DNA of 64,000 nt from Sanyastnella coralliicola. Its GTDB lineage: Bacteria; Bacteroidota; Bacteroidia; Flavobacteriales_D; Sanyastnellaceae. The DNA lies in contig NZ_CP132543.1 in assembly GCF_030845195.1 (NCBI RefSeq), positions 1,877,501 to 1,941,500 of the forward strand. Reading direction: 5' to 3'. Position numbers and translations under genes: made by a program. The notes under the pieces were generated by a model. That model saw only the letters and a list, made by a program, of their open reading frames with translations. It was not told the origin of the DNA and ran no database searches. Each line of letters starts with the position of its first letter. Within the stretch, counting starts at the first letter, position 1. This document shows positions 1,506 through 20,900 of the stretch, piece by piece.

Positions 1506-1844
1506 TTATGTCTGGTTTAATCTCTGTTCTATTTTGTCAATCTGACCGTCCAGAAGAAGTCTGAAATTCTCAATCACTTCGTCCCAGTTTTGAGCAATGC
1601 TCTTCTTGATATTAAACATTGCAGGATCCATGATATCTGGATTTAAATTTAAGGATTGTCTCAAGTACTTGGTTACCTCAAATATCACCTGTTTATCATC
1701 TTCATCATAAACACCAACCCAGAATACACAGTGTTCGTCATCCATGTTCAACGTTTCTTTAATAGCCACTTCAATGGCTTCCATGCTAGGTTCATCAATT
1801 GAGTCTCCCCACCCTTTTTCCAAGTAGCTTTGTGTTACTTTCAT
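1506..1844 (-). CDS. Hypothetical small cytoplasmic protein
   Basis: This 112-residue acidic protein has no signal peptide or membrane helix. It begins with a GWGDSIDEPS motif, followed by a helix (MEAIEVAIKETLN), a beta segment with HCVFWVGVYDEDDKQVIFEV, and a helical C-terminus. The layout of a short beta strand, a helix and a hydrophobic strand is loosely like some small immunity-type proteins, but I cannot name a family. It is the first gene of the minus-strand unit 1844 to 1016. No toxin gene is visible beside it, so the immunity idea is only a guess. Confidence 0.6.
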   Translation of the reverse strand: MKVTQSYLEKGWGDSIDEPSMEAIEVAIKETLNMDDEHCVFWVGVYDEDDKQVIFEVTKYLRQSLNLNPDIMDPAMFNIKKSIAQNWDEVIENFRLLLDGQIDKIEQRLNQT

Positions 1845-2007
1845 TCTATAACATTTTCAATTCGGTCCAATCACTCCGTGAAGTCTGCCTGCAACGAGCA
1901 TCCTACACTGAAAGATCTAGTGACTAATCAATGAATTTCCCTTTACAGCTTGGTCTGTAGAAGTGCAAGAAGTCATTGTGAAATGGTCTTTTCTCCCCTT
2001 GGTCCCT

Positions 2008-2169
2008 GTTCACAAGGATTAAATCCATTCGCTCGTTCACAATCACTCTCAGCTTTACACTGTTCACAATTGGTTTGACGCAGCGCCTGTTCACAATGGG
2101 GTCTACAAATTCCGTGTTCACAATCACCAAATTGGTTTCCATGTTCACAATGACTTTTCGTTCCATGTG
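2008..2169. repeat. Diverged 27-bp array with constant GTTCACAA core (array 1)
   Basis: The word GTTCACAA occurs at 2008, 2035, 2062, 2089, 2116 and 2143, always exactly 27 bp apart. The ninth base is T in five copies and G in the first. The other 18 bases of each unit differ from copy to copy. On the minus strand the array reads as a nonapeptide repeat of the form xIVNxxxxx (for example PIVNRRCVK), inside a frame 2166 to 1924 that I do not trust as a gene. A constant short core with variable intervening sequence and fixed phase looks like a binding-site array more than decayed coding sequence. Confidence 0.8.
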
Positions 2170-2333
2170 AACAAATTGATCTGTCAGTGCGACAAATGAT
2201 AAGCCGTACAGGTCATCACTTTAATCCATGTCTTTTAGCCTTTCGGTTTTCATGAATTCAAGATACCTGAGTCTATCTAGACCGCGAAATTGTTCACCAG
2301 ATATTCGATGAGTGCTGTGTTTTAAGGGATGAG

Positions 2334-2493
2334 GGTTCCGGGTTCCGGCGTCCGGCATCCGGCGTCCGTTTTTTTTCATCCCAGTCCACGGTCCACAGTC
2401 CACGAATCACCCTATATATAAACTGAGTGGTGAACAATTGGAGATTCTTTCGTGGCACAGCGGTTTTTCCCGGCGTCCGGCATCCGGCGTCCG
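2334..2493. repeat. Heptamer tracts of two sequence types
   Basis: 2334-2368 holds five units of 7 bp with consensus GSNTCCG (ggttccg, gcgtccg, gcatccg). 2382-2409 holds four units of the CAGTCCA/CGGTCCA type. 2471-2493 repeats the first type three times (ggcgtcc, ggcatcc). Both tract types keep a strict 7-bp phase, like the short tandemly repeated heptamers known from some cyanobacterial genomes. They are not in any gene. Confidence 0.75.
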
Positions 2494-2542
2494 TTTTATT
2501 TCCTCACTGCCGTAAACCAATTGCCGACAATAAATTCTTTTC

Positions 2543-2622
2543 GGACAGACTTGATCCGTCCTTCTCGGTCCACAGTCCACGGTCTACAGTCTACGAACTA
2601 CGTACCACACACTACGTACCCC
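2543..2622. repeat. Hairpin-heptamer element, copy 1
   Basis: An imperfect palindrome at 2543-2561 (GGACAGA ... ATCCGTCC) is followed by CTTCTC and then a 7-bp-phase array from 2567 to 2622: ggtccac, agtccac, ggtctac, agtctac, gaactac, gtaccac, acactac, gtacccc. Units drift steadily away from the first one along the array. The same order of hairpin, CTC link and GGTCCAC array occurs at 2799-2857, 3895-3967 and, with a decayed hairpin, 5219-5358. Confidence 0.75.
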
Positions 2623-2626
2623 CGGC

Positions 2627-2800
2627 GTTCACAATCGCATTTTCGGAATGCTATTTCACAATTGCATTTTCAGAATGCTATTTCACAATTGCATTTTCGG
2701 AATGCTAGTTCACAATTGCATTTTCAGAATGTCGTTTCACAATTGTTTTTTCAGAATAGCGTTTCACAATTGCGTTTTTAGAATGTCGTTTCTCAATTGG
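2627..2800. repeat. Conserved 27-bp tandem array (array 2)
   Basis: Six complete 27-bp units begin at 2627, 2654, 2681, 2708, 2735 and 2762, with a partial seventh at 2789. Each starts with [GT]TTCACAAT and continues with GCATTTTCAGAATGCTA or close variants. The period and the TTCACAAT core are the same as in array 1, but here the whole unit is conserved, so this array is younger. Plus-strand frames read FHNCIFRML-type nonapeptides, while the minus frame matching array 1 (xIV[NK]xxxxx) is broken by stops. I take it as non-coding. Confidence 0.85.
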
Positions 2801-2857
2801 ACGGATGTTATCCGTCCCTCTCGGTCCACAGTCCACGGTCCACAGTCTACGAACCAC
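2799..2857. repeat. Hairpin-heptamer element, copy 2
   Basis: A perfect inverted repeat GGACGGAT-GTT-ATCCGTCC spans 2799-2817. After CTCTC comes a heptamer array at 2823-2857: ggtccac, agtccac, ggtccac, agtctac, gaaccac. The element begins in the last, partial unit of the 27-bp array, so the two repeat classes directly abut. Confidence 0.8.
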
Positions 2858-2956: not shown

Positions 2957-3712
2957 TCAATCTTGAGTGCTAAGGATGATCGAGATATATTCTAAATCAT
3001 CGCCCCCCAAGTACACCTTTGTTTCTTCTCGGATTAGGGTGCAATAATATCTTGCTTTTGATCTGTCTTTATGGAAACCATGATTCCCTTCAAAATAGTT
3101 TTTGGCAACCCAAAAAGCGGCAAGGGAAAATCCTTCTTCAGCCAGAGCAACAAGGGTCACACGCCCTCTATCCCTGTCTGTATATTTACTATGACTCGTT
3201 AAATATCCTGAATTGAAACTCTTTCCATGGAACAGAAAGTATCCCATTTCAAATCTGCCGAATTCACTTCCTTGTTCAATACTTATTTCCAAGTAGCTCA
3301 AATATTCCTTCAGTCGACCTCGGCTAAATGATATTTGAGACAGGTATACGCTAGCTAGGTGACTTCCTTGATCACTAGCAATTTTCAAGTATTTCTTGCC
3401 TTTGGACTTTTTCTGCGGCGTGTTGCATCCTTCGAATAAACATAATGCAACATCTGCAAGAGAGTCGAAGTCCCTACAGGCTAATGAATTCTCAATCATG
3501 TCATTAACTGGATCCTTTTCCATCCAAACATCAGAATCAACAAATTCTCGGACTTTAGATCGGTTTTCATCACAAACACTTACGGATGTGCTATCGGTTT
3601 CATCTACAGAATGTTCCAAAATGGAATTTCCCCGTAGGTTTCGAGAAGACGCACTGCACCAAATAAGTCCCAAAATCAGAATGGTGATGACATTTTTTGT
3701 TGCAATCCTCAT
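2957..3712 (-). CDS. Secreted Sel1-repeat protein
   Basis: This 251-residue protein has an N-terminal hydrophobic signal (ITILILGLIWCSASS). It then carries Sel1-like/TPR-type units at about residues 105-235, recognised by the spaced pattern in KIASDQGSHLASVYL, SIEQGSEFGRFEMGYFLFHG and ALAEEGFSLAAFWVAKNYF. Sel1 repeats form alpha-solenoids used for protein contacts. The Cys in IWC is preceded by Trp, so a lipobox is doubtful and cleavage by signal peptidase I is more likely. It stands alone between repeat-rich intergenic regions. Its partner and role cannot be read from the sequence. Confidence 0.7.
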   Translation of the reverse strand: MRIATKNVITILILGLIWCSASSRNLRGNSILEHSVDETDSTSVSVCDENRSKVREFVDSDVWMEKDPVNDMIENSLACRDFDSLADVALCLFEGCNTPQKKSKGKKYLKIASDQGSHLASVYLSQISFSRGRLKEYLSYLEISIEQGSEFGRFEMGYFLFHGKSFNSGYLTSHSKYTDRDRGRVTLVALAEEGFSLAAFWVAKNYFEGNHGFHKDRSKARYYCTLIREETKVYLGGDDLEYISIILSTQD

Positions 3713-3894: not shown

Positions 3895-3967
3895 GGACGG
3901 ATCTAATCCGTCCCTCTCGGTCCACGGTCCACAGTCCACGGTCCACGGTCCACGCCCCACTTCCACC
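3895..3967. repeat. Hairpin-heptamer element, copy 3
   Basis: A perfect inverted repeat GGACGGAT-CTA-ATCCGTCC is at 3895-3913. CTCTC follows, then heptamers from 3919: ggtccac, ggtccac, agtccac, ggtccac, ggtccac, gccccac. The hairpin arms are identical to those at 2799-2817 and only the 3-nt loop differs. The element ends next to the stop codon of the minus-strand gene at 3969-4343. Confidence 0.8.
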
Positions 3968-5218: not shown

Positions 5219-5358
5219 GACGAATATAATCAGTCCCTTTCGGTCCACAGTCCACAGTCCACAGTCTACGAACCACGAACCACGCACCACAAACCAATTC
5301 CCCGTCATCCGTCCACCGTCCACCGTCCACCGTCAACCGTCAACCGTCAACCGTTGAC
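5219..5358. repeat. Hairpin-heptamer element, copy 4 (decayed hairpin, long array)
   Basis: GACGAATATAATCAGTC at 5220-5236 is a degraded form of the hairpin seen in copies 1-3. From 5242 a strict 7-bp phase runs for about 16 units in two blocks. The first is ggtccac, agtccac, agtccac, agtctac, gaaccac, gaaccac, gcaccac, aaaccaa. The second, from 5303, is cgtcatc, three cgtccac, three cgtcaac and cgttgac. Neighbouring units are most alike, as expected for growth by slippage. The array ends about 28 bp before the CHAP gene. Confidence 0.8.
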
Positions 5359-5958: not shown

Positions 5959-8900
5959 TTACTTCTGCTGAGTAATGATCATTCTGTGGTGGTAAACCTT
6001 ATCGTCTACTGTCATCATGATCACGTAAGAACCAGCTTCCCATTCGAATGCTGAGAACTCCAACTGGTACAGACGACGTGCGTCAGCTGTTCCTTTGAAG
6101 ACTGGCATTACTTCGCGACCTGCCATATCGTAAACGCATGCTGCAACTTCTGCATCGCGTGGTACGCTGAACTCCACTGTGAAGCGATCATCAGTAGGGT
6201 TCGGGTAAGTCACTAGGCTAACAAGCTCTGGAGTGTCAACTGTCACGGTAATTACCTGAACTCCTTCAGTTACGTTGTTACAGTTGTCAATCGCAGTCCA
6301 AGTACGGATGATTTCGTAAGGACAGAACTCACTTGTTTGAACTTCTGTGAATTCGATCGTTACATCCTCAGAACAGTTGTCAGTTGCAAAGATGTCATCT
6401 GCTACTGCTGGTACTTCATCCTCACAGTCGATTTCAACATCAGCAGGAACGTTGAATAGTTCAGGTGCTGTTGTATCAACTACTTGTAGAAGCTGAGTTG
6501 TTGTTACTGTGTTACCACAGTCATCCATCGCCTGGTAAGTACGCTGTAGTGTTCCGATACAACCTCCAGAGAAGATCAACTCTTCAATGATGGTTACCTC
6601 TACTGAAGCGTCACAGTTATCAGAAGCTGTGATGATGTAGTCATCAACCTGATCACATTCGATTGAGATGAATACTTCGAACTCATCGAATTCAGGAGCT
6701 ACTTCGTCAATTACTGTTACAAGCTGAGTAGTTGTTGCTTCGTTTCCACAATCATCAGTTGCAGTCCAAGTACGTAGGATAGTGTAAGGACAACCTTCAC
6801 CGATCACTTCGTCGAATGTGATCTCTACGTTGTCATCACAGTTATCAGTTGCAGTCAATGATGGAGCAATAGTTACTTCATCACAGTTTACAGTGATATC
6901 CTCTGGCATGCTATCGAATACTGGTGGAGTGAAGTCGCTCACAGTGATTGTCTGTGTCGCTGTCGCTTCGTTTCCACATTCGTCAGTTGCTGTGTACGTA
7001 CGTACGATCTGGTAACCACAATCAAGTGTTTCCGTTACTTCAGCTGAAGTAACCACTGGCATTGGATCACAGTTGTCTTCAACTTCAACGTCTCCTGGTG
7101 CAGGAACATCCTCACCACACTCGATCGTTACGTCAGCAGGCACACCAGTGATCACCGGTGCTTCTGTATCCGTAACCGTAATTACTTGTACGTGGATCGC
7201 AGCGTTTCCACAATCATCAGTCACTGTGTAAGTACGTGTGATGATGTATCCACAATCAGCGTCTTCGTTCTCTTCAGCTACGTCTACTGTCAACATGTTG
7301 TCACAGTTATCAGTTGCTTCGATTGTTCCAACACCTGGTACTTCGTCACACTGTACTGTAGCATCCTCAGGAGCGGATACGATTACCGGAGCAGTCGTGT
7401 CTACAACAGAGATTACTTGAGACTCGCTAGTTGTGTTGTCACACTCATCGTGTACAGTCCATGTACGGATGATCAAGTAACCACACTCTTGGTCGATTGT
7501 CTCCTCGATGAACGATACCGTCAAGTCTTCAGTACAGTTGTCAGTCGCAGTTACTACTGCTACCTCTGGAATATCATCACATTCCGCGATAGCGTCTGCA
7601 GGAACACCCACAAGCACTGGAGCAGTTGTATCAACTACAGTGATCTCTTGCGTTGCAGAAGCAGTGTTTCCACACTCGTCTTCTGTAGACCATGTGCGGT
7701 AGATTAGGTAACCACACTCAAGATCTTCAATCACTTCTACGAACGTTACCATCAAGTTGTCAGCACAGTTATCTGTTGCTGAAACTGTAGGAACTCCTGG
7801 TACAGCGTCACACTCTACTGTTTCGTCAGCCGGTGCACCTACCAACACTGGATCAGTGTTGTCAACTACAGAAAGTGTCTGAGTGTATGAATCTGCGTTA
7901 CCACAATCGTCCATTACTGTCCAAGTACGTTCGATAGTGTAAGGACATCCATCGCTGATTACTTCTTCGCTGAACATTACTTCAAGCGTTTCATCACAGT
8001 TGTCAGTTGCAGTCACAACAGCTGGTGCAGGAATGTCATCACATTCAACAGTCATATCAGCTGGCGTTCCTTCAAGAACTGGAGCAGTTGTATCAACCAC
8101 CGTGATTGTCTGAGAAACAACCGTGCTGTTTCCACAATCATCAGTTGCAGTCCAAGAACGCTCGATCAAGTATCCACAGTCTAGCTGAACGATTCCTGAG
8201 ATTGCAGTGATATCCAATTCGTCGTCACAGTTATCAGAGAAGATTGGCATTCCTGCTGGCTCTTCTTCGTCACACTCGATCGTTACATCTGCAGGAGCAA
8301 ATTCTACTACTGGGTTTGTCGTATCGATTGCAGTGATTGTCTGAGACTCAGTTACACTGTTTCCACAAGCATCTGTTGCAGTCCACATACGTGTTACCAT
8401 GAATCCACAATCAAGGTCTGTGAAGTTCTCGTTGTATGTCACTGTCACGTCCATGTCACAGTTATCAGTTGCTGTTACTTCAGCTGGCGCTGGAATATCA
8501 GTACACTCGTAATCTGCATCAGCAGGAACTCCAGAAAGAACTGGTGCTGTGTTATCAGAGATTTCGATGTTCTGAACAACGCTTACTTCGTTACCACAAT
8601 CATCCATGGCAACCCAAGTGCGAACGATCGTGAAGCTGTTTGCACAGTCTCCAGGAACGATAGCCTCGTTGAATCCAACCTCTAGGTCTTCATCACAGTT
8701 GTCTTCGAATGTTGGTGCTTCGAATGGTACTTCTTCATCACACTCAAGAGCTAGTGAAGCTGGCTGAGTAAGGATTGATGGTGAAGTTGTATCTGTAACA
8801 GTCAATGTCTGTGAAGCTGAAGCTTCATTTCCACAGTTGTCTTCTACTGTCCAAGTACGAACGATCATGTATCCACAATCTCCGTTTGCAACTACTTCGT

Positions 8901-11900
8901 CAGTGAATACTACCATGAGGTCATCATCACAGTTATCAGAAGCTGTTACTACTGGAGCTGCTGGAATATCATCACACTCTACAGTCGCATCAGCAGGAAC
9001 TCCTTCAAGAACTGGAGCTACTGTATCTACTACTGTCAATGTTTGTGATGCAGAAACCATGTTTCCACAATCGTCAGTTGCTGTCCATGTGCGAACGATA
9101 GTGTAAGGACACTCACCCGCGTTGATTACTTCTTCGAAGTTGATCGCTACGTCCATGTCACAGTTATCAGTCGCTGTTACCACGGCAGCAGCAGGGATAT
9201 CTGAACATTCAACGTCCATATCTGCAGGAACACCTGCAAGAACTGGATCAACTGTATCTACTACGAAGATGCTCTGTGAAGTAGAAACTGCGTTTCCACA
9301 ATCATCAGTTGCAGTCCAAGTACGGATCAACTGGTAACCACAAGCGAGGTCTTCAGTCATTTCAGTCATTTCAACTGAAAGCTCATCGTCACATGCGTCT
9401 TCGAATGTTGGCATTCCAGTTGGAAGTGCTTCATCACATTCGATGGTTTCATCAGCAGGAGTTGTCAATACAACTGGTGCTTCCGTATCAACCACTGTGA
9501 TCACTTGAGATTCTGTAGCGTAGTTCCAGCAGTTATCTTCAACTGTCCATGTACGTACGATCAAGTAACCACATGTTTGAGGAACGATGCTTTCATCGAA
9601 TGTTACTGTCATCTCACCGTCGTAGCAGTTATCTACTGCAGTTACAACTGGTGCGTCTGGAATATCAGTACACTCAACAGTCACGTCAGCAGGAACACCT
9701 ACTAGATCTGGAGCTGTTGTATCAACAACAGTTACGATCTGCGTGAAGCTTGCTTCGTTTCCACAAAGGTCAGTTGCAGTCCATGTGCGCTCGATAGTGT
9801 ATCCACAAGGCTCAGCACCATCCATTACTGGATCACCAGGGATGATGACTTCGTCGTAAGTGATCACTGGAGTTTCGTCACAGTTATCAGCTACTTCGAT
9901 CGCGTCATTGTCTGGTCCTGGTACCATGTCACACTCTACTTCGAAATCAGCAGGTGTGCTTGTGAATTCAGGTGCTGTTGTATCGTTGATAGTGATCGTC
10001 TGTGAATCACTTACCATGTTACCACAGTTATCAGTCGCTGTCCAAGTACGGATGATCGTCAATGGACAAGACTCACCAATCACCTCTTCTGTCATGATCA
10101 CTGGTACGTTCTCATCACAGTTATCGATTGCTGTTACCATGTCAGCAGATGGTGCATCACCACACTCACCGTTGAAGTCTGCAGGAACACCAACAAGAAC
10201 TGGTGCCTCTTCATCAATTACAGTGATTGTCTGCGTCATGATCGACTGGTTACCACAAGCGTCAGTTGCAGTCCAAGTACGAATCAAGTTGTAAGGACAT
10301 CCACCTGTGATTGTCTCCGTCATTTCAACTACTGGTGCGTCGTCACAGTTATCTGTAGCAGTCACCATAGCTGGTTCAGGGATATCAGTACACTCAACAG
10401 TCACGTCAGCTGGCACACCTTCCATTACTGGAGCAGTTGTGTCAATCACAGTGATTGTCTGAGAAACTGTAGTTGAGTTACCACAATCATCAGTCGCTGT
10501 CCATGAACGCTCGATAGTGTAGCCACAATCAGTTACGTTGTTGATTCCTGAGATCGCTGTGATTTCCAATTCGTCATCACAGTTATCAGAGAACATTGGC
10601 ATATCTGTTGGCTCATCTTCGTCACACTCGATTGTTACGTCTTGTGGAGCGAAGTCAACCATTGGATCAACTGTATCTACAACATCAATTGTCTGAGTGT
10701 AGCTTGTTGTGTTTCCACAAGCATCAGTTGCAGTCCAAGTACGCTCGATCAATTGACCACATGGTAGATCGAAGATGTCTTCGTTGTAGATCACTGCTGG
10801 TTCGTCACAGTTATCAGTTGCAGTTACAACTGCTGCTGCTGGAATCTCAGTACACTCAACAGTCATGTTCTCAGGAGTTCCCTCAAGAACTGGTGCTGTC
10901 GTGTCAACGAAGTTGATAGTCAACGTACGAACTGCTGTGTTTCCACATTCGTCCATCGCTGTCCATGTGTAGATGTCTGTGCTCTCCTGTGGACAGTCAC
11001 CAGGGATTGTCTCAGTTGATAGCGTGATCTCTACATCTTCATCACAGTTATCTGTCGCTGTTGGAGGAACGATCGTTGGTGATACGTTACACTCTACAGT
11101 CAATTCTTCGTCGTCGCCGCTCAATACCGGTGCTACCGTATCCTCGATAGTGATCACCTGTACACAGCTTGTTGAGTTACCACATGGGTCAGTCGCTGTC
11201 CATGTACGCTCGAATGTGTAAGGACAATCTCCTGTCGTTGGTCCGTCAACGTAAGTGATTACCGGAGTTGAACAGTCATCAGTTGCTGTTGCCTCTCCTG
11301 TGTTCATTGGGTCTGTTGACTCAGTACACTCGATAGTCACGTCTGCTGGACACTCGATCATTGGTGCTGCGAAGTCGTTGATCGTGATGATCTGAACACA
11401 GCTTGATGAGTTACCACATGCGTCAGTCGCTGTCCAAGTACGTTCGAATGTCGCTGGACAATCGTCAGTTGCTGGTCCGTCTGCGTAAGTAACCTCGAAT
11501 GATGAACAGTTGTCAGTTACTACAGGCTCTCCTGCGAACTCAGGATCGCTTGATCCGTTGTCACAGTTCACTACGTAGTCTGCTGGACACTCGATCTCTG
11601 GAGCCGTCTCATCGAACACGTTCAATGTCTGTGACTCAGAGTAAGTGTTTCCACATGCGTCAACCGCTGTCCAAGTGCGAACGATGTCGTATCCACAATC
11701 GTGGTATACTGTCTCAGCAGTCAATGATACTACTGGGTTATCATCACAGTTGTCTTGAGCTACTACGATCGCATCCGGTACATCAGCGTCACAGTCGATT
11801 GACTGGTCTGCAGGTACTCCAATGAGGATCGGTGCTGTTGTATCGATGAAGTTGATAGTCAACGTACGAACTGCTGTGTTTCCACATTCATCCATCGCTG

Positions 11901-14900
11901 TCCATGTGTAGATGTCTGTGCTTTCCTGTGGACAGTCTCCTGGGATTGTCTCAGTTGATAGCGTGATCTCTACGTCTTCATCACAGTTATCTGTTGCTGT
12001 TGGAGGTACGATCGTTGGTGATACGTTACACTCTACAGTCAATTCTTCGTCGTCTCCGCTCAATACTGGTGCTACCGTATCCTCGATAGTGATCACCTGT
12101 ACACAGCTTGTTGAGTTACCACATGGGTCAGTCGCTGTCCATGTACGCTCGAATGTGTAAGGACAATCTCCTGTCGTTGGTCCGTCAACGTATGTGATTA
12201 CCGGAGTTGAACAGTCATCAGTTGCTGTTGCCTCTCCTGTGTTCATTGGGTCTGTTGACTCAGTACACTCGATAGTCACGTCTGCTGGACACTCGATCAT
12301 TGGTGCTGCGAAGTCGTTGATCGTGATGATCTGAACACAGCTTGATGAGTTACCACATGCGTCAGTCGCTGTCCATGTACGTTCGAATGTCGCTGGACAA
12401 TCGTCTGTTGCTGGTCCGTCTGCGTAAGTAACCTCGAATGATGAACAGTTGTCAGTTACTACAGGCTCTCCTGCGAACTCAGGATCACTTGATCCGTTGT
12501 CACAGTTCACTACGTAGTCTGCTGGACACTCGATCTCTGGAGCCGTCTCATCGAACACGTTCAATGTCTGTGACTCAGAGTAAGTGTTTCCACATGCGTC
12601 AACCGCTGTCCAAGTGCGAACGATGTCGTATCCACAATCGTGGTATACTGTCTCAGCAGTCAATGATACTACTGGGTTATCGTCACAGTTGTCTTGTGCT
12701 ACTACAATCGCATCCGGTACATCAGCGTCACAGTCGATTGACTGGTCTGCAGGTACTCCGATCAGGATCGGTGCTGTTGTATCGATGAAGTTGATAGTCA
12801 ACGTACGAACTGCTGTGTTTCCACATTCGTCCATCGCTGTCCATGTGTAGATGTCTGTGCTTTCCTGTGGACAGTCTCCTGGGATTGTCTCAGTTGATAG
12901 CGTGATCTCTACGTCTTCATCACAGTTATCTGTTGCTGTTGGAGGTACGATCGTTGGTGATACGTTACACTCTACAGTCAGTTCTTCGTCTTCTCCGCTC
13001 AATACCGGTGCTACCGTATCCTCGATAGTGATCACCTGTACACAGCTTGTTGAGTTACCACATGGGTCAGTCGCTGTCCATGTACGCTCGAATGTGTAAG
13101 GACAATCTCCTGTCGTTGGTCCGTCAACGTAAGTGATTACCGGAGTTGAACAGTCATCAGTTGCTGTCGCCTCTCCTGTGTTCATTGGGTCTGTTGACTC
13201 AGTACACTCGATAGTCACGTCTGCTGGACACTCGATCATTGGTGCTGCGAAGTCGTTGATCGTGATGATCTGAACACAGCTTGATGCGTTACCACATGCG
13301 TCAGTCGCTGTCCATGTACGTTCGAATGTCGCTGGACAATCGTCAGTTGCTGGTCCGTCTTCGTAAGTAACCTCGAATGATGAACAGTTGTCAGTTACTA
13401 CAGGCTCTCCTGCGAACTCAGGATCGCTTGATCCGTTGTCACAGTTCACTACGTAGTCTGCTGGACACTCGATCTCTGGAGCCGTCTCATCGAACACGTT
13501 CAATGTCTGTGACTCAGAGTAAGTATTTCCACATGCGTCAACCGCTGTCCAAGTGCGAACGATGTCGTATCCACAATCGTGGTATACTGTCTCAGCAGTC
13601 AATGATACTACTGGGTTATCATCACAGTTGTCTTGAGCTACTACGATCGCATCCGGTACATCAGCGTCACAGTCGATTGACTGGTCTGCAGGTACTCCAA
13701 TGAGGATCGGTGCTGTTGTATCGATGAAGTTGATAGTCAACGTACGAACTGCTGTGTTTCCACATTCGTCCATCGCTGTCCATGTGTAGATGTCTGTGCT
13801 TTCCTGTGGACAGTCTCCTGGGATTGTCTCAGTTGATAGCGTGATCTCTACGTCTTCATCACAGTTATCTGTTGCTGTTGGAGGTACGATCGTTGGTGAT
13901 ACGTTACACTCTACAGTCAATTCTTCGTCGTCTCCGCTCAATACTGGTGCTACCGTATCCTCGATAGTGATCACCTGTACACAGCTTGTTGAGTTACCAC
14001 ATGGGTCAGTCGCTGTCCATGTACGCTCGAATGTGTAAGGACAATCTCCTGTCGTTGGTCCGTCAACGTATGTGATTACCGGAGTTGAACAGTCATCAGT
14101 TGCTGTCGCCTCTCCTGTGTTCATTGGGTCTGTTGACTCAGTACACTCGATAGTCACGTCTGCTGGACACTCGATCATTGGTGCTGCGAAGTCGTTGATC
14201 GTGATGATCTGAACACAGCTTGATGAGTTACCACATGCGTCAGTCGCTGTCCATGTACGTTCGAATGTCGCTGGACAATCGTCTGTTGCTGGTCCGTCTG
14301 CGTATGTAACCTCGAATGATGAACAGTTGTCAGTTACTACAGGCTCTCCTGCGAACTCAGGATCACTTGATCCGTTGTCACAGTTCACTACGTAGTCTGC
14401 TGGACACTCGATCTCTGGAGCTGTTACATCAACAACATCCAATGTTTGTGACTCAGAGTAAGTGTTTCCACACTCATCCATTGCAGTCCAAGTACGAACG
14501 ATCTGGTAACCACAATCATGGTAAACCGTCTCAGCAGTCAATGATACTACTGGTTCATCGTCACAGTTGTCTTGAGCTACTACGATAGCATCAGGAACCT
14601 CATCCGTACAATCGATCGTTGCATCTGCAGGAACACCGATTAGGATTGGAGCAGTTTCGTCAACCACAGTGATAGATGATACTACTGATGTTTGGTTTCC
14701 ACAATCATCAGTTGCAGTACATGTCTGGTAGAAGATGACGTTACAACCATCTTCTTCCATTGAAGTCGTCACTGTTACTTCGATGTTCTCATCACAGTTG
14801 TCAGTGAATGTCATGTATACTTCAGGAAGTTCTTCATCACAGCTGATTGTGATGTGGAACCCTTCTCCGTCAGCTACAGGTGCTACTGTATCTTCAATTG

Positions 14901-17900
14901 TGATTACCTGGGTTCCGCTTACTGTGTTTCCACATGCGTCAACTGCAGTCCAAACACGCTCGAATGTGTAAGGACAATCACCAGTGATTGGTCCGTCTTC
15001 GTATGAAACCATTGGAACTGAACAATCGTCAGCTGCAGTAGCCTCACCTGTGTTTAAAGGATCTGTAGATTCAGTACACTCAACCGTTACATCTGCAGGT
15101 ACTTCCAATGTTGGAGCTGCAAAGTCGTTGATCGTGATTAGCTGTACGTAAGAAACCGCGTTACCACAGTTGTCAGTTGCTGTCCAAGTACGCTCGAATG
15201 TCGCTGGACATACATCTGGAGCTACTGTGTCTTCGAATGTGATCACTAGGTTGTCATCACAGTTGTCAGTCGCCGTTGGCTCACCTGCGAATTCAGGATC
15301 GCTTGATCCGTTATCACAGTTTACAGTGTAATCTGCAGGAGTTGAAGTGAATTCTGGAGCAGTTGTATCAACTACAGTGATCACTTGGTTAACAGTTGTG
15401 CTGTTACCACAATCGTCAGTTGCTGTCCATGAACGCTGGATTTCGTATCCACAATCCAACTGTACGATTCCAGAGATCGCTGAGATATCTAGATCATCAT
15501 CACAGTTGTCAGCGAATACTGGCATATCCGTTGGCTCGTCTTCGTCACACTCAATCGTTACATCCGCTGGAGCAGAAACAACTTCTGGTGCTGTTGTATC
15601 AAGAACAGTGATGGTTACTGTTGCTTCTGCCATGTTTCCACAGTCGTCAGTAGCAGAACAGTACTTCACGTACTCGTATCCACAATCTAGTTCGTTGATC
15701 CAGTTGTTTACCGAGATCGTTAGTTCGCTATCGCAGTTGTCAACGTATGTTACGTTGATCTCTGGGATATCCTGATCACACTCGATTGTTTGATCCGGAG
15801 TCTGGAACGTAATTACTGGCGCCTGATCATCAATTACTGTGATGATCTGAGTTGTTGAAACTGCGTTATCACAATCGTCAACTGCTACCCATGAACGCTC
15901 AATGATGTATCCACAATCTTGGTCAACGATAACATCCTCCATTTCAATGTGGAGGTTGTCGTCACAATTGTCAGTGAACTCAGCGTCTTCTGTTGGAAGC
16001 GCTTCGTCACATGTAACTGTTACGTCAGCCGGAGTAGATACTACTTCAGGAGCTGTTGTATCAGTTACTGTCAAGATCTGAGTTGCTGTGTTTTCGTTTC
16101 CACAGTTATCAACTGCAGTCCAAACACGCTCGATCTCGTATGAACAGTCATCAATCAAGTTGATGTGATCTGCCACAGTTACTACTGGTGCGTCATCACA
16201 GTTGTCAGTTGCAGTCACTGCTGCAGGACCAGGGATATCATCACACTCAACTGTTGCATCGGCAGGAACACCGTTGAACATTGGAGCAGTTGTATCAACT
16301 ACTGTGATCACCTGGTTAACAATTGTGCTGTTACCACAATCATCAGTTGCTGTCCATGAACGCTGGATTTCATATCCACAATCCAACTGAACGATTCCAG
16401 AGATCGCTGAGATATCTAGATCATCATCACAGTTGTCAGCGAATACTGGCATATCTGTTGGCTCGTCTTCGTCACACTCGATGGTTACGTCGGCTGGAGC
16501 TGAAACAACTTCTGGTGCCGTTGTATCGAGAACCGTGATCGTTACAGTAGCCTCTGCTGTGTTTCCACAGTCATCAGTAGCTGTGCAGTACTTCACGTAT
16601 TCGTATCCACAATCTAGTTCGTTGATCCAGTTGTCAACTGACACTGTCAAGTCACTGTCACAGTTATCTACGAATGTTACGTTGATTTCAGGGATATCCT
16701 GATCACACTCAATTGTTTGATCTGGAGTCTGAGAAGTAATAACTGGAGCTTCAGTATCTACTACTGTAATTGTCTGAGATGCCGAAACAGAGTTTCCACA
16801 ATCGTCAGTTGCCGTCCAAGTGCGGATGATTTCTGAACCACAATCAAGATCGTTGATTGTTTCGTCCATCATTACTGCAACATCCGTATCACAGTTGTCA
16901 GTCGCAGTTACGTTGGCGTCTGCTGGATCTTCGTCACAGTTGATTGTCATATCTGCAGGTATACCTTCTAGTACTGGTGCTGTTTCATCAAGAACAACAA
17001 CATCGTAAGAAGCTACGCTTGTGTTTCCACAGTCATCAGTTGCAGTGTAAGTGAATGTAATCGTGTAGTTACATCCTGCTCCGTTGATTGTTTCTTCAAC
17101 TGAAACATCTACATCATCATCACAGTTGTCAGTTGCTGTTACGTCCACTGGAGCGAAGGAATCATCACAAAGACCTATTTGATCTGCAGGTACTCCAACA
17201 AGAACTGGAGCAGTTGTGTCTTCTACAGTGATTACCTGTGAAGCTGAAGCCATCTGGCCACAAGCATCAGTTACTGTCCAAGTACGTGTGATTGTGTAAG
17301 GACAAGTTGCTCCTGAAATGTCTTCGTCAAGCTCAACGCTTACGATTTCAGAACAGAAGTCGAATCCTGTTACATCTGCAGGTGCAGGGATGTCATCACA
17401 TTCAACCGTTACGTCTGCAGGTACACCTTCTACTACTGGGTTAGCGTCATCAATTGAAGTGATACGCTGAGAAGCAGAAGTTGTGTTACCACAGTTATCA
17501 GTTGCTGTCCAAGTGTAGATTGTTACACCTAGTTCAGGACAAGTTGCGTCTTCGTATGTAGTCTCAAGTGTTACTACTACGTTGTCGTCACAGTTGTCAG
17601 TTGCAGTTACGTTCGCTGCAGGAATCGCAATGTCACAAGACACTGTTTCGTCTGCAGGTACTCCTTCTAGTACCGGTGCCGTTGTATCAACTACAGTAAT
17701 CGTCTGTGAAACTGAAGTCGCTTGACCACAATCGTTTGTTGCTGTCCACGTGCGGATCAACTCGTAACCACAGTCGAGGTCGTTCTGAGTTTCGTTGAAT
17801 TCAACATTCAAGTTTCCGTCACAAGCGTCAGCGAAGATTGGCTCATCTGTAGGAAGTGCTTCATCACACTCAACAGTAACTGCGTCAGCTACACCTTCTT

Positions 17901-20900
17901 CTACTGTTGGTGTAGAGAAACATCCTTCTTCGATTGTTTCGTCTGGAAGGTCAACTTCACATTCGTCGTTACCCCAACGTACAGCTAGATCGTACGTTCC
18001 AGGAGCAAGTCCAGTAATAGTGAATGATCCTGTGTTGTCAAGAACGTTGTATTCCGCTGGCCAAGTAGCACCACCATCGATAGAGAACTCGATGTTTGTA
18101 CGCGCTGGGTTGTCAACGAAAGTGAATGTGATTGTACCGTTATTATCAACACAATCAACGTCAGTTGAAGATACAGTCACTTCAGGAAGCTCATCGAATG
18201 TGATGTGAACGTCATCCATTGCCACACATCCTGCACAGTCAGTAACTGTAACTGTGTAGTCACCTGCTTCTGATACCGTGATTGTTTGAGTTGTCTCACC
18301 TGTTGACCATTCGTATGTCAATTCTTGTGATGGAATCTCACATGGAGTCAATGAAGCGAACCACTCAGTACATCCACCGAATGTTCCTGCTGTCCATGAT
18401 CCTAGTCCGTACTCACCTGGGTTGAATCCAGCTCCGTCAGCAAGAATGAAGTGCTTCTCAGAAACTTTCTCTTCGATCGTGAATACCTCGTCTCCTACGG
18501 TAATCGTTCCGAGGAAAGAAGTGTAGTAGATCTCAGGTCCAGAGATTCCGTTCAAGTAACATGATGCGTTCCAAGTGTTTCCATCATCTTCTTTATCGTA
18601 AAGTGTTACGTCAACAATTCCGATGTCACCGTTTTCCGTGTTAACGATAGATCCTTTAATCGTAGCCGTACCATCAGCGAATTCAGTCAACTTCAATTCA
18701 CCGTTGATTGCCCAAACAGTGTGAGAACCTTGACATCCTTCAGCACGCTGCCAGATCACACCTGTTCCTGGAGTATTGATACAGTTCCCTTCAGAAACTG
18801 CATTACCCATTGTGTAACAGTTGATGATCTCAATACACTCTGACTCGTTGCTTACTTCAGCAGTCAATGTTGTCTCTTCTCCTTCACATGGGTTCGTGTC
18901 ACCAGTGATATCTACTTCGAGGATACAATCTGCTTGACAGTAATCAGGAGCTACGTTCCACACCTGGTCGTAACAACCTTCTACTGTGTACTGCTCGTCA
19001 AAGAGGTTTGGCTGCCAGTTATCAGCAACGATTCGCCACATAGCACCTAGGTGCGTAGTTACGATGATGCTTTCTCCTGGAGCAAGTTCTTCTACGAATT
19101 GATCACCACCTGGTAGCCACTCGTATAGATCTACGATACAGATTCCAAGGTTCTTGATCTCAAGTTCGATTTCGTCGTTGTCATTGATGTGAACGTCGTC
19201 ACCATCAGTGATACAGTCTCCGTCACCCCACTTAGTTACGATGTCGTAATCTCCTTCACCAAGACCAGTGAATGTGTATGAACCAGAGTTATCAGGTACG
19301 TTCACGAATGAGTTACCACCATCGATAGACAATTGAATGTGTGTACGACAAGCGCTGTCTTCGAAAGAAAGAGTAATCGTTCCTTCGTTCTGTGAACAGT
19401 TATCATCAGTGCTAGTAGCAGTAACTGTCGGAAGATCATCAATGATTGTGATTGTCTGAACATAAGTAGCAGTGTTTCCACAATCATCAGTTGCAACGAA
19501 TGTACGTTCGATGTAGTAGTTACAATCAGCTCCGATGATCTCGTCGCTCTGCGTTACTGTTACGTCATCATCACAATTGTCAATCGCAGAAGCGCTAGAT
19601 GCAGCTACCGTTTCTGAACAGCTGAATTCAGCATCTTCAGGAACGCTTGTAAATACAGGAGCCTCTTCGTCAACGATTGTTATTGTCTGCTCGCAAGAGT
19701 ATGTCTCACCAGCGTACTCACCAGAGAATGTACGAGTGATAACCTCAGGACAAGAACCTGTTGAACTATCGCTGTATGACCAATCGATGTCTACTTCAGA
19801 AGGTGTGCTACATCCAGAAGACTGTCCGTAAACGCGAACGTTGTCAATTCCCCAACCACCCATTGTAAAGTAGTTAGATCCTTCTCCGTAAGCCTTGAAG
19901 CGAACTTCGAACGACTGTCCTGCTGCACCAGCAATTTCGTAAGTGTCATCGTAGTTTACAGTTGAACCGTAAACGTTCTGGTAAGTGTTAAGTGTTTGCC
20001 ACTCTCCACCGTTCACGCGGTACTGAACCGCAAGGTATCCAGGTACATCTTCACCACCGTAAAGATCCTGTTGCATACAGAAGCTTAGGTAAACGTCATC
20101 CGTACAACATGCGTCGTACACTGGTGACTTAAGCTTCGTGTTGTAATCAGTGTGGAAGTTTGTGAAATCGATAAATACGTTTGGAATGTCACCACAAGCT
20201 GGGTCACATCCAGTACCTACCTGCCATCCTGTTCCGAATGACCAACCGTCAGTTGCTCCACCCCATCCTTGGAATTCGAAGTCAAACTCACCGGCTTCAC
20301 GATCGCAATCACCTACACCGTTACAAACAAGTGTCGGGTAACCAGTGTAAGCTGGATCGATGCTTGACTCACAGTCTAGAGTTAGATCGTCTACACATTC
20401 GATTTCACAGTTCTGAGCTTCACAGTTCAAGTTCGCGTTGATGTCTCCGTGACCTGAAGCCGTTCCAGAGTATTCGAACCAGATTGAGAATCCGTACTCG
20501 TCGTTCTTACAGTTAGCTCCATTCGAACCAAGCTGTAGACCGAAGTTCATATCTGTACGATCCGCAAGGAATAGGTATTCAGTTTCTAGATCATCACGTC
20601 CAGTAAGAACGCTTGGACGAGAAGTGTCGATCATGTAGTAAGTCCACTCTTCTGCATCAGCTTCAGTTGCATCACCACATAGCTTCGCTTCTTTGCCCAT
20701 GGCAGTCCACTCGCTGTAGTTCGACTTGTTGCTGAAGTACATTACTACATCGAAGATTTGGCTTGAGTCACTGATGCGGTACATTGAACCAGTCAACTTC
20801 GCCGTTCCATCTGCGTACTCGATCCACTGTAGTCCGTCTTCAGTTGAAGTCCAGTCCTGACCGAAGTCATTCGCGAACCAGAAGTGACGCTGTCCAGGAC

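Follow-up and report, generated by a model that had tools for sequence, protein, structure and literature searches.

The closest described counterparts of the repeats analyzed here are the operators and stoperators of L5 and cluster A mycobacteriophages, in which one asymmetric site is repeated many times, both at promoters and between genes, with an orientation that tracks transcription (PMC9283540). These sites are 13 bp long, occur singly across the phage genome, and are bound by a dual-domain repressor (PMC9283540). A locus in a 64,000-nt stretch of the Sanyastnella coralliicola chromosome (the window) likewise has one asymmetric GTTCAC site in many copies at promoter-like and intergenic positions: the hexamer is common to tandem arrays, to a 25-bp motif (M1), and to a site adjoining a promoter-like box (M2). 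Unlike the phage sites, the cores found here are 9 bp long and grouped in arrays of 5–9 units with 27-bp steps on a bacterial chromosome, and the orientation rule is not universal. The element may work most like these operators and stoperators, which we regard as its nearest analogue; membership in that class is not claimed.

Sites of SinR-type XRE regulators are also short (GTTCTYT); promoters carry several of them, in differing orientations, and an HTH protein binds them there (PMC3163267). The array loci share with these a short GTTC-type site and encode an HTH_3 protein, but no long 27-bp arrays are described for SinR promoters, and the HTH protein of the array loci is without a detectable sequence relative in solved structures. 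Tn7-like ends contain multiple TnsB sites. The arrays resemble such ends in that asymmetric sites are repeated on both sides of a variable cargo, but no TnsABC-like genes or target duplication were found, and the arrays are mostly direct rather than inverted. In Bacteroidales, rAID orphan-immunity clusters are sets of short genes that share one orientation and have conserved motifs between them (PMC12247911). The genes neighboring the arrays in the window are similarly small and co-oriented, and the host is also a member of the Bacteroidota; however, the cargo of the array loci is mixed, their motifs form 27-bp arrays, and a family search found no rAID tyrosine recombinase among the gene neighbors. 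The heptameric (ATTCACA)n intergenic repeats common in Bacteroidota contain TTCACAA but are 7-bp simple repeats. Descriptions of such 27-bp arrays were not found in the literature searched, and the element looks undescribed.

Arrays in the window and across the genome

Array 1 (positions 2008–2169 of the window, plus strand), here also called array A as the one on the promoter side, consists of six 27-bp units with the core GTTCACAA(T); its six GTTCACAA cores start at 2008, 2035, 2062, 2089, 2116, and 2143, in exact 27-bp steps. Array 2, or array B (2627–2799, plus strand), contains six near-identical units, in which TTCACAAT starts at 2628, 2655, 2682, 2709, 2736, and 2763, and a seventh with a decayed core (TTCTCAAT, 2790–2797). 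An initial sequence-only reading had described two 27-bp arrays with a common core, one diverged and one fresh, and this description is borne out quantitatively, as within-array spacer identity is 0.31 in array 1 and 0.77 in array 2, the lowest and highest values of all 19 arrays in the genome. The same reading took the bases between the cores of array 1 to be unrelated, but they retain some relation to the family: scored against a profile of the other arrays, these spacers reach −4.1 bits, versus −14.2 for shuffled sequence. It also contained no mention of the inverted cores, the M1, M2, and TATCTTG motifs between the arrays, the genome-wide family, or the 54-bp period described below.

An inverted core (ATTGTGAA on the plus strand; 1975–1982, minus strand) is located ~27 bp beyond the first core on the outer side of array 1, and another, TGTGAAC (2166–2172, minus strand), closes the array on its promoter side. 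The TGTGAAC-type closing arrangement is also seen at the 483k, 2412k, and 3424k loci, and array A is bounded by inverted cores at most other loci too, as array 1 is on both sides in the window.

A dispersed element limited to the genus has one of its copies in the window, and the two arrays form the flanks of this copy. The feature is therefore not confined to 2008–2800: the locus shares promoter-like and 25-bp motifs with others in the 4.10-Mb genome, about ten in all, which together contain 19 arrays and 133 units. Nearly all arrays are paired, with 0.4–1.6 kb between pair members, and their units follow one another at intervals of 27 bp (106 cases) or 26 bp (eight cases). A search of the genome for two cores at this spacing (GTTCACAA-N19-GTTCACAA) gave 54 matches, while the reversed control pattern gave none, so the array pattern is far from chance.

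The cores recur at 27 bp, as first noted, but the description of the unit needs correction, as it is partly a 54-bp dimer. Identity between units is higher at lag 2 (0.548) than at lag 1 (0.471), a difference reached in 0/2000 permutations, and in array 2 a period of 54 outscores a period of 27 in TRF. Since 54 bp corresponds to about five helical turns, alternate cores fall on nearly the same face of the helix. The spacers keep YGYNTTTNNGRATTCYGT and are not free to vary.

CRISPR arrays are composed of identical 21–48-bp repeats and unique spacers and are accompanied by cas genes. The arrays described here have a 9-bp core and spacers that are partly conserved, family-like, and shared between arrays rather than unique, so a CRISPR array was rejected, in agreement with the sequence-only reading. 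Its suggestion of a template-like repeat locus found no evidence, the spacers again being family-like and not unique. The single reverse transcriptase seen (DRT8-like) is part of a defense island, and its distance from another array is well above 1 kb.

Taking at least three units in register as the criterion for presence, arrays are found in two of 399 genomes of the order, namely our own and that of a sister species (G001); the third congener (G002) has none by this criterion. The distribution of M1 among 60 relatives matches that of the arrays. M1 is absent from viral contigs, in which the array pattern has 40 matches (at the pattern level alone), and the 2412k element has no match in plasmids. 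In a scan of a genome-contig collection for arrays, the matches listed and inspected were heptamers or unrelated short repeats throughout.

Drift has affected the core less than the spacer. Across seven pairs of orthologous arrays from our genome and the sister species (45 units, with the core defined as positions 0–8), the core differs at 15/405 sites (3.7%) and the spacer at 125/777 (16.1%; Fisher p=2e-11); flanks in these alignments differ at 25%. Core divergence far below that of the spacer supports selection on the core, as the sequence-only reading had proposed; equal divergence of core and spacer, which it had named as evidence to the contrary, was not observed.

Anatomy of the element and a candidate binder

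M1 (CCTATATATAAACTGAGTGGTGAAC; 2411–2435, plus strand) is a near-invariant 25-bp motif that occurs, as CCTATATATARACTGAGTGGTGAAC, in 11 genome copies, all at array loci and either between pair members or beside an array. M2 (TCATCGAATATCTGGTGAACAATTT; 2287–2311, minus strand) is a GTTCAC-type site adjoining the promoter-like box M3 (TATCTTG; 2259–2265, minus strand), which is 26 nt from the GTGAAC of M2. TATCTTG resembles the Bacteroidota −7 box (TAnnTTTG), and −7 and −33 positions are assigned after Bacteroidota promoters in general. GTGAAC-26 nt-TATCTTG or a close variant is present at most loci, with a spacing of exactly 26 nt; M2/M3 are absent at 1101k and 2226k. Within 254 kb of own DNA examined, GTGAA[CT]-N26-TAnnTTG occurs eight times, all at array loci, and all other spacings from 15 to 40 of the same two boxes together account for seven occurrences. 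The sister species contains five such N26 pairs, at array loci.

Along the promoter-like direction, the element consists of array B, simple repeats, M1, ~80–120 nt, M2-N26-TATCTTG, a gene or none, and array A. The orientation of array A is that of M2/M3 in 8/8 own and 4/4 sister cases; judged by the nearest upstream gene, only ~14/19 arrays follow transcription. Inversions affect array B at 483k and 3424k and M1 at 1755k. The cargo includes an XRE HTH protein at 957k and 3104k, an ADP-ribosylglycohydrolase at 1755k, a glyoxalase-like protein at 2694k, and a polyketide-cyclase-like protein at 1101k. The stretch from M2/M3 to array A is free of genes at 483k, 2412k, and 3424k, as it is in the window. 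In the window, a 112-aa ORF (1506–1844, minus strand) is located downstream of array 1 in the M2/M3 direction, while the 3' end of a 251-aa ORF with a weak Sel1-repeat match (2957–3712, minus strand) faces array 2.

The HTH protein, 92 aa in length with an HTH_3 match (E 9e-9), is encoded twice in our genome and three times in G001, with none in the others among 60 relatives. All five copies are at array loci; one of the three sister-species copies is at a broken locus or itself broken. At the thresholds used, relatives were not detected in phages, plasmids, viral contigs, or solved structures; a fold model of moderate quality (pLDDT 65) was not used as evidence. Because the protein has the same distribution as the arrays, with every copy at an array locus, it ranks first among possible binders, on the basis of association across three congeneric genomes. 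In both species, strong intrinsic terminators lie between the HTH gene and array A (z −3.5 to −4.8 by direct folding; a consensus terminator scan missed a terminator that direct folding shows at these loci). The array there is outside the transcript, which favors a role at the DNA level.

Possible roles of the arrays

We assign a probability of about one half to the reading that the arrays are oriented series of binding sites for a single DNA-binding protein and that they delimit a regulated gene slot within accessory islands. A protein-binding array, among the roles suggested by the sequence-only reading, is the best that remains, with binding itself a prediction. In this model, one sequence-specific protein would recognize GTTCAC(A/C) in the arrays (GTTCACAAT), in M1, and in M2. 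From M2, ~40 bp ahead of the transcription start, the bound protein would control the promoter. In the arrays it may form an oriented chain that advances in 27-bp steps, with alternate sites close to one face of the helix. Such a chain at the edge of a transcription unit could serve as a roadblock or insulator that shields the gene slot from read-through and from its neighbors. The 92-aa XRE-type HTH protein is the putative binder and may regulate its own gene. The slot would lie within fast-changing accessory regions, so that its cargo differs between loci. With its arrays of spaced cores, its N26 pair, and a candidate HTH protein, the model can be tested directly.

Roles at the level of protein or RNA fit the arrays less well. 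A nonapeptide-repeat protein (xIVNxxxxx) could be imagined because 27 is divisible by 3 and array 1 has an open 80-aa frame. However, none of the frames remains open in the full set of 19 arrays, the eight 26-bp steps break the frame across the family, and there is no family match; coding, already considered the weaker explanation on first reading, was rejected and is scarcely credible. The arrays could alternatively act as RNA, with repeated AUUGUGAAC in a 3' region or small RNA that is protein-bound or provides guides, as most arrays are 3' of a gene and four own loci have solely non-coding DNA from the promoter-like element to array A. We consider this quite unlikely, since the terminators described above separate the gene from array A at the HTH loci and there is little fold signal, with 3/19 arrays below z −2 on the AUUGUGAAC strand. 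On the TTCACAAT strand, one array has a folding z of −3.4 and one of −2.1, on the opposite strand three are at −2.3 to −2.9, and the rest are nearer zero. A structured RNA was rejected because there is no consistent fold, the exceptions are on inconsistent strands, and the element has no Rfam match. The lack of an open frame, the lack of consistent folding, and the terminators together favor a DNA-level role.

The main rival at the DNA level is that the arrays are the ends of a mobile cassette or element, acting as binding sites of a transposase or recombinase, with the cargo between or beside them exchanged through recombination at their ends. At 2412k, at the outer ends of 3103k and 957k, at array B of 958k (which is inverted in the sister species), and at 2227k, homology between loci or species tends to stop close to an array edge, within ~30 bp to tens of bases, and the genes beyond the edge differ. 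Moreover, the same frame holds different cargo or none, the arrays adjoin Rhs-like tip genes and defense islands, and M1 is invariant yet its inversion is tolerated. The edge breaks fit boundary elements in fast-changing islands and mobile-cassette ends alike, and breaks at the edges of a conserved module are expected anyway where flanks turn over fast. No transposase or recombinase gene was seen at the loci examined (a transposase encoded elsewhere might act in trans), and neither a target-site duplication nor a clean empty site was found; in empty-site comparisons with the sister species (window, 2694k, 2227k, and 3424k), the flanks were unmatched, cut by a contig end, or broken at a dispersed palindrome. 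The copies are also old (70–80% alike), and several occupy orthologous positions in both species, which indicates that they have not been recently mobile. Mobility would be possible but is not the explanation we expect. It is improbable that the arrays are a neutral selfish satellite, with tandem repeats spread and kept by duplication without function: unit number does differ between species, and amplification has occurred by units and by 54-bp dimers, but the core is conserved within orthologous units, M1 and the N26 promoter pair have a fixed link to the arrays, and the orientation of array A is conserved.

Returning to binding-site arrays around a gene slot, a more speculative and rather doubtful extension is that array-bounded slots, each with a standard promoter and an invariant 25-bp site, capture and exchange accessory and defense genes, a process controlled by the element-encoded XRE protein through binding to the arrays. 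Such a system would be integron-like, with protein-binding arrays in place of attC. Should the arrays delimit transcription or the exchange of genes at accessory loci, they would represent simple bacterial chromatin-like boundaries or a cassette platform of one genus.

Neighboring genes and other repeats

The element marks loci beside variable and defense genes. One array, near 3425k, has Pycsar genes for the effector PycTM and the cyclase PycC directly downstream of it, and after these comes the DRT8-like defense reverse transcriptase (L017:10989-13826; genome 3424988-3427825). Type I restriction-modification genes and a WYL-domain regulator are directly beside the array pair near 484k (L009:10480-19171). 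In the sister species, fragments resembling Rhs-like C-terminal tips by sequence, together with small genes, adjoin or replace arrays (L211, L213, and L248).

Other repeats occur close to the arrays. TCCGGCG/GGTCCAC heptamers between M2 and M1 (2338–2404) are separate genome-wide repeats. Heptameric intergenic repeats of this kind (GGTCCAC, TCCGGCG, and CCGTCAA) are abundant, occurring in the window at 2338–2404, 2458–2495, 2566–2600, 2820–2857, 3914–3954, and 5239–5354, and are also common in the sister genome. A palindrome (GGACGGATGTTATCCGTCC; 2799–2817) is located at the outer edge of array 2. It recurs on the outer side of the 2227k array, at the point from which the sister species is syntenic. 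The dispersed form, GGACGGATnnnATCCGTCC, is found at window 2799–2817 and at L018 ~11290–11320, with diverged copies near window 2540–2560 and 3897–3916. Its position beside heptamers and array edges suggests that it is possibly a terminator or another repeat family. Farther along the window, a single 5,800-aa ORF (5959–23361) contains ~13.5 copies of a 234-bp DNA repeat and repetitive cysteine-containing domains.
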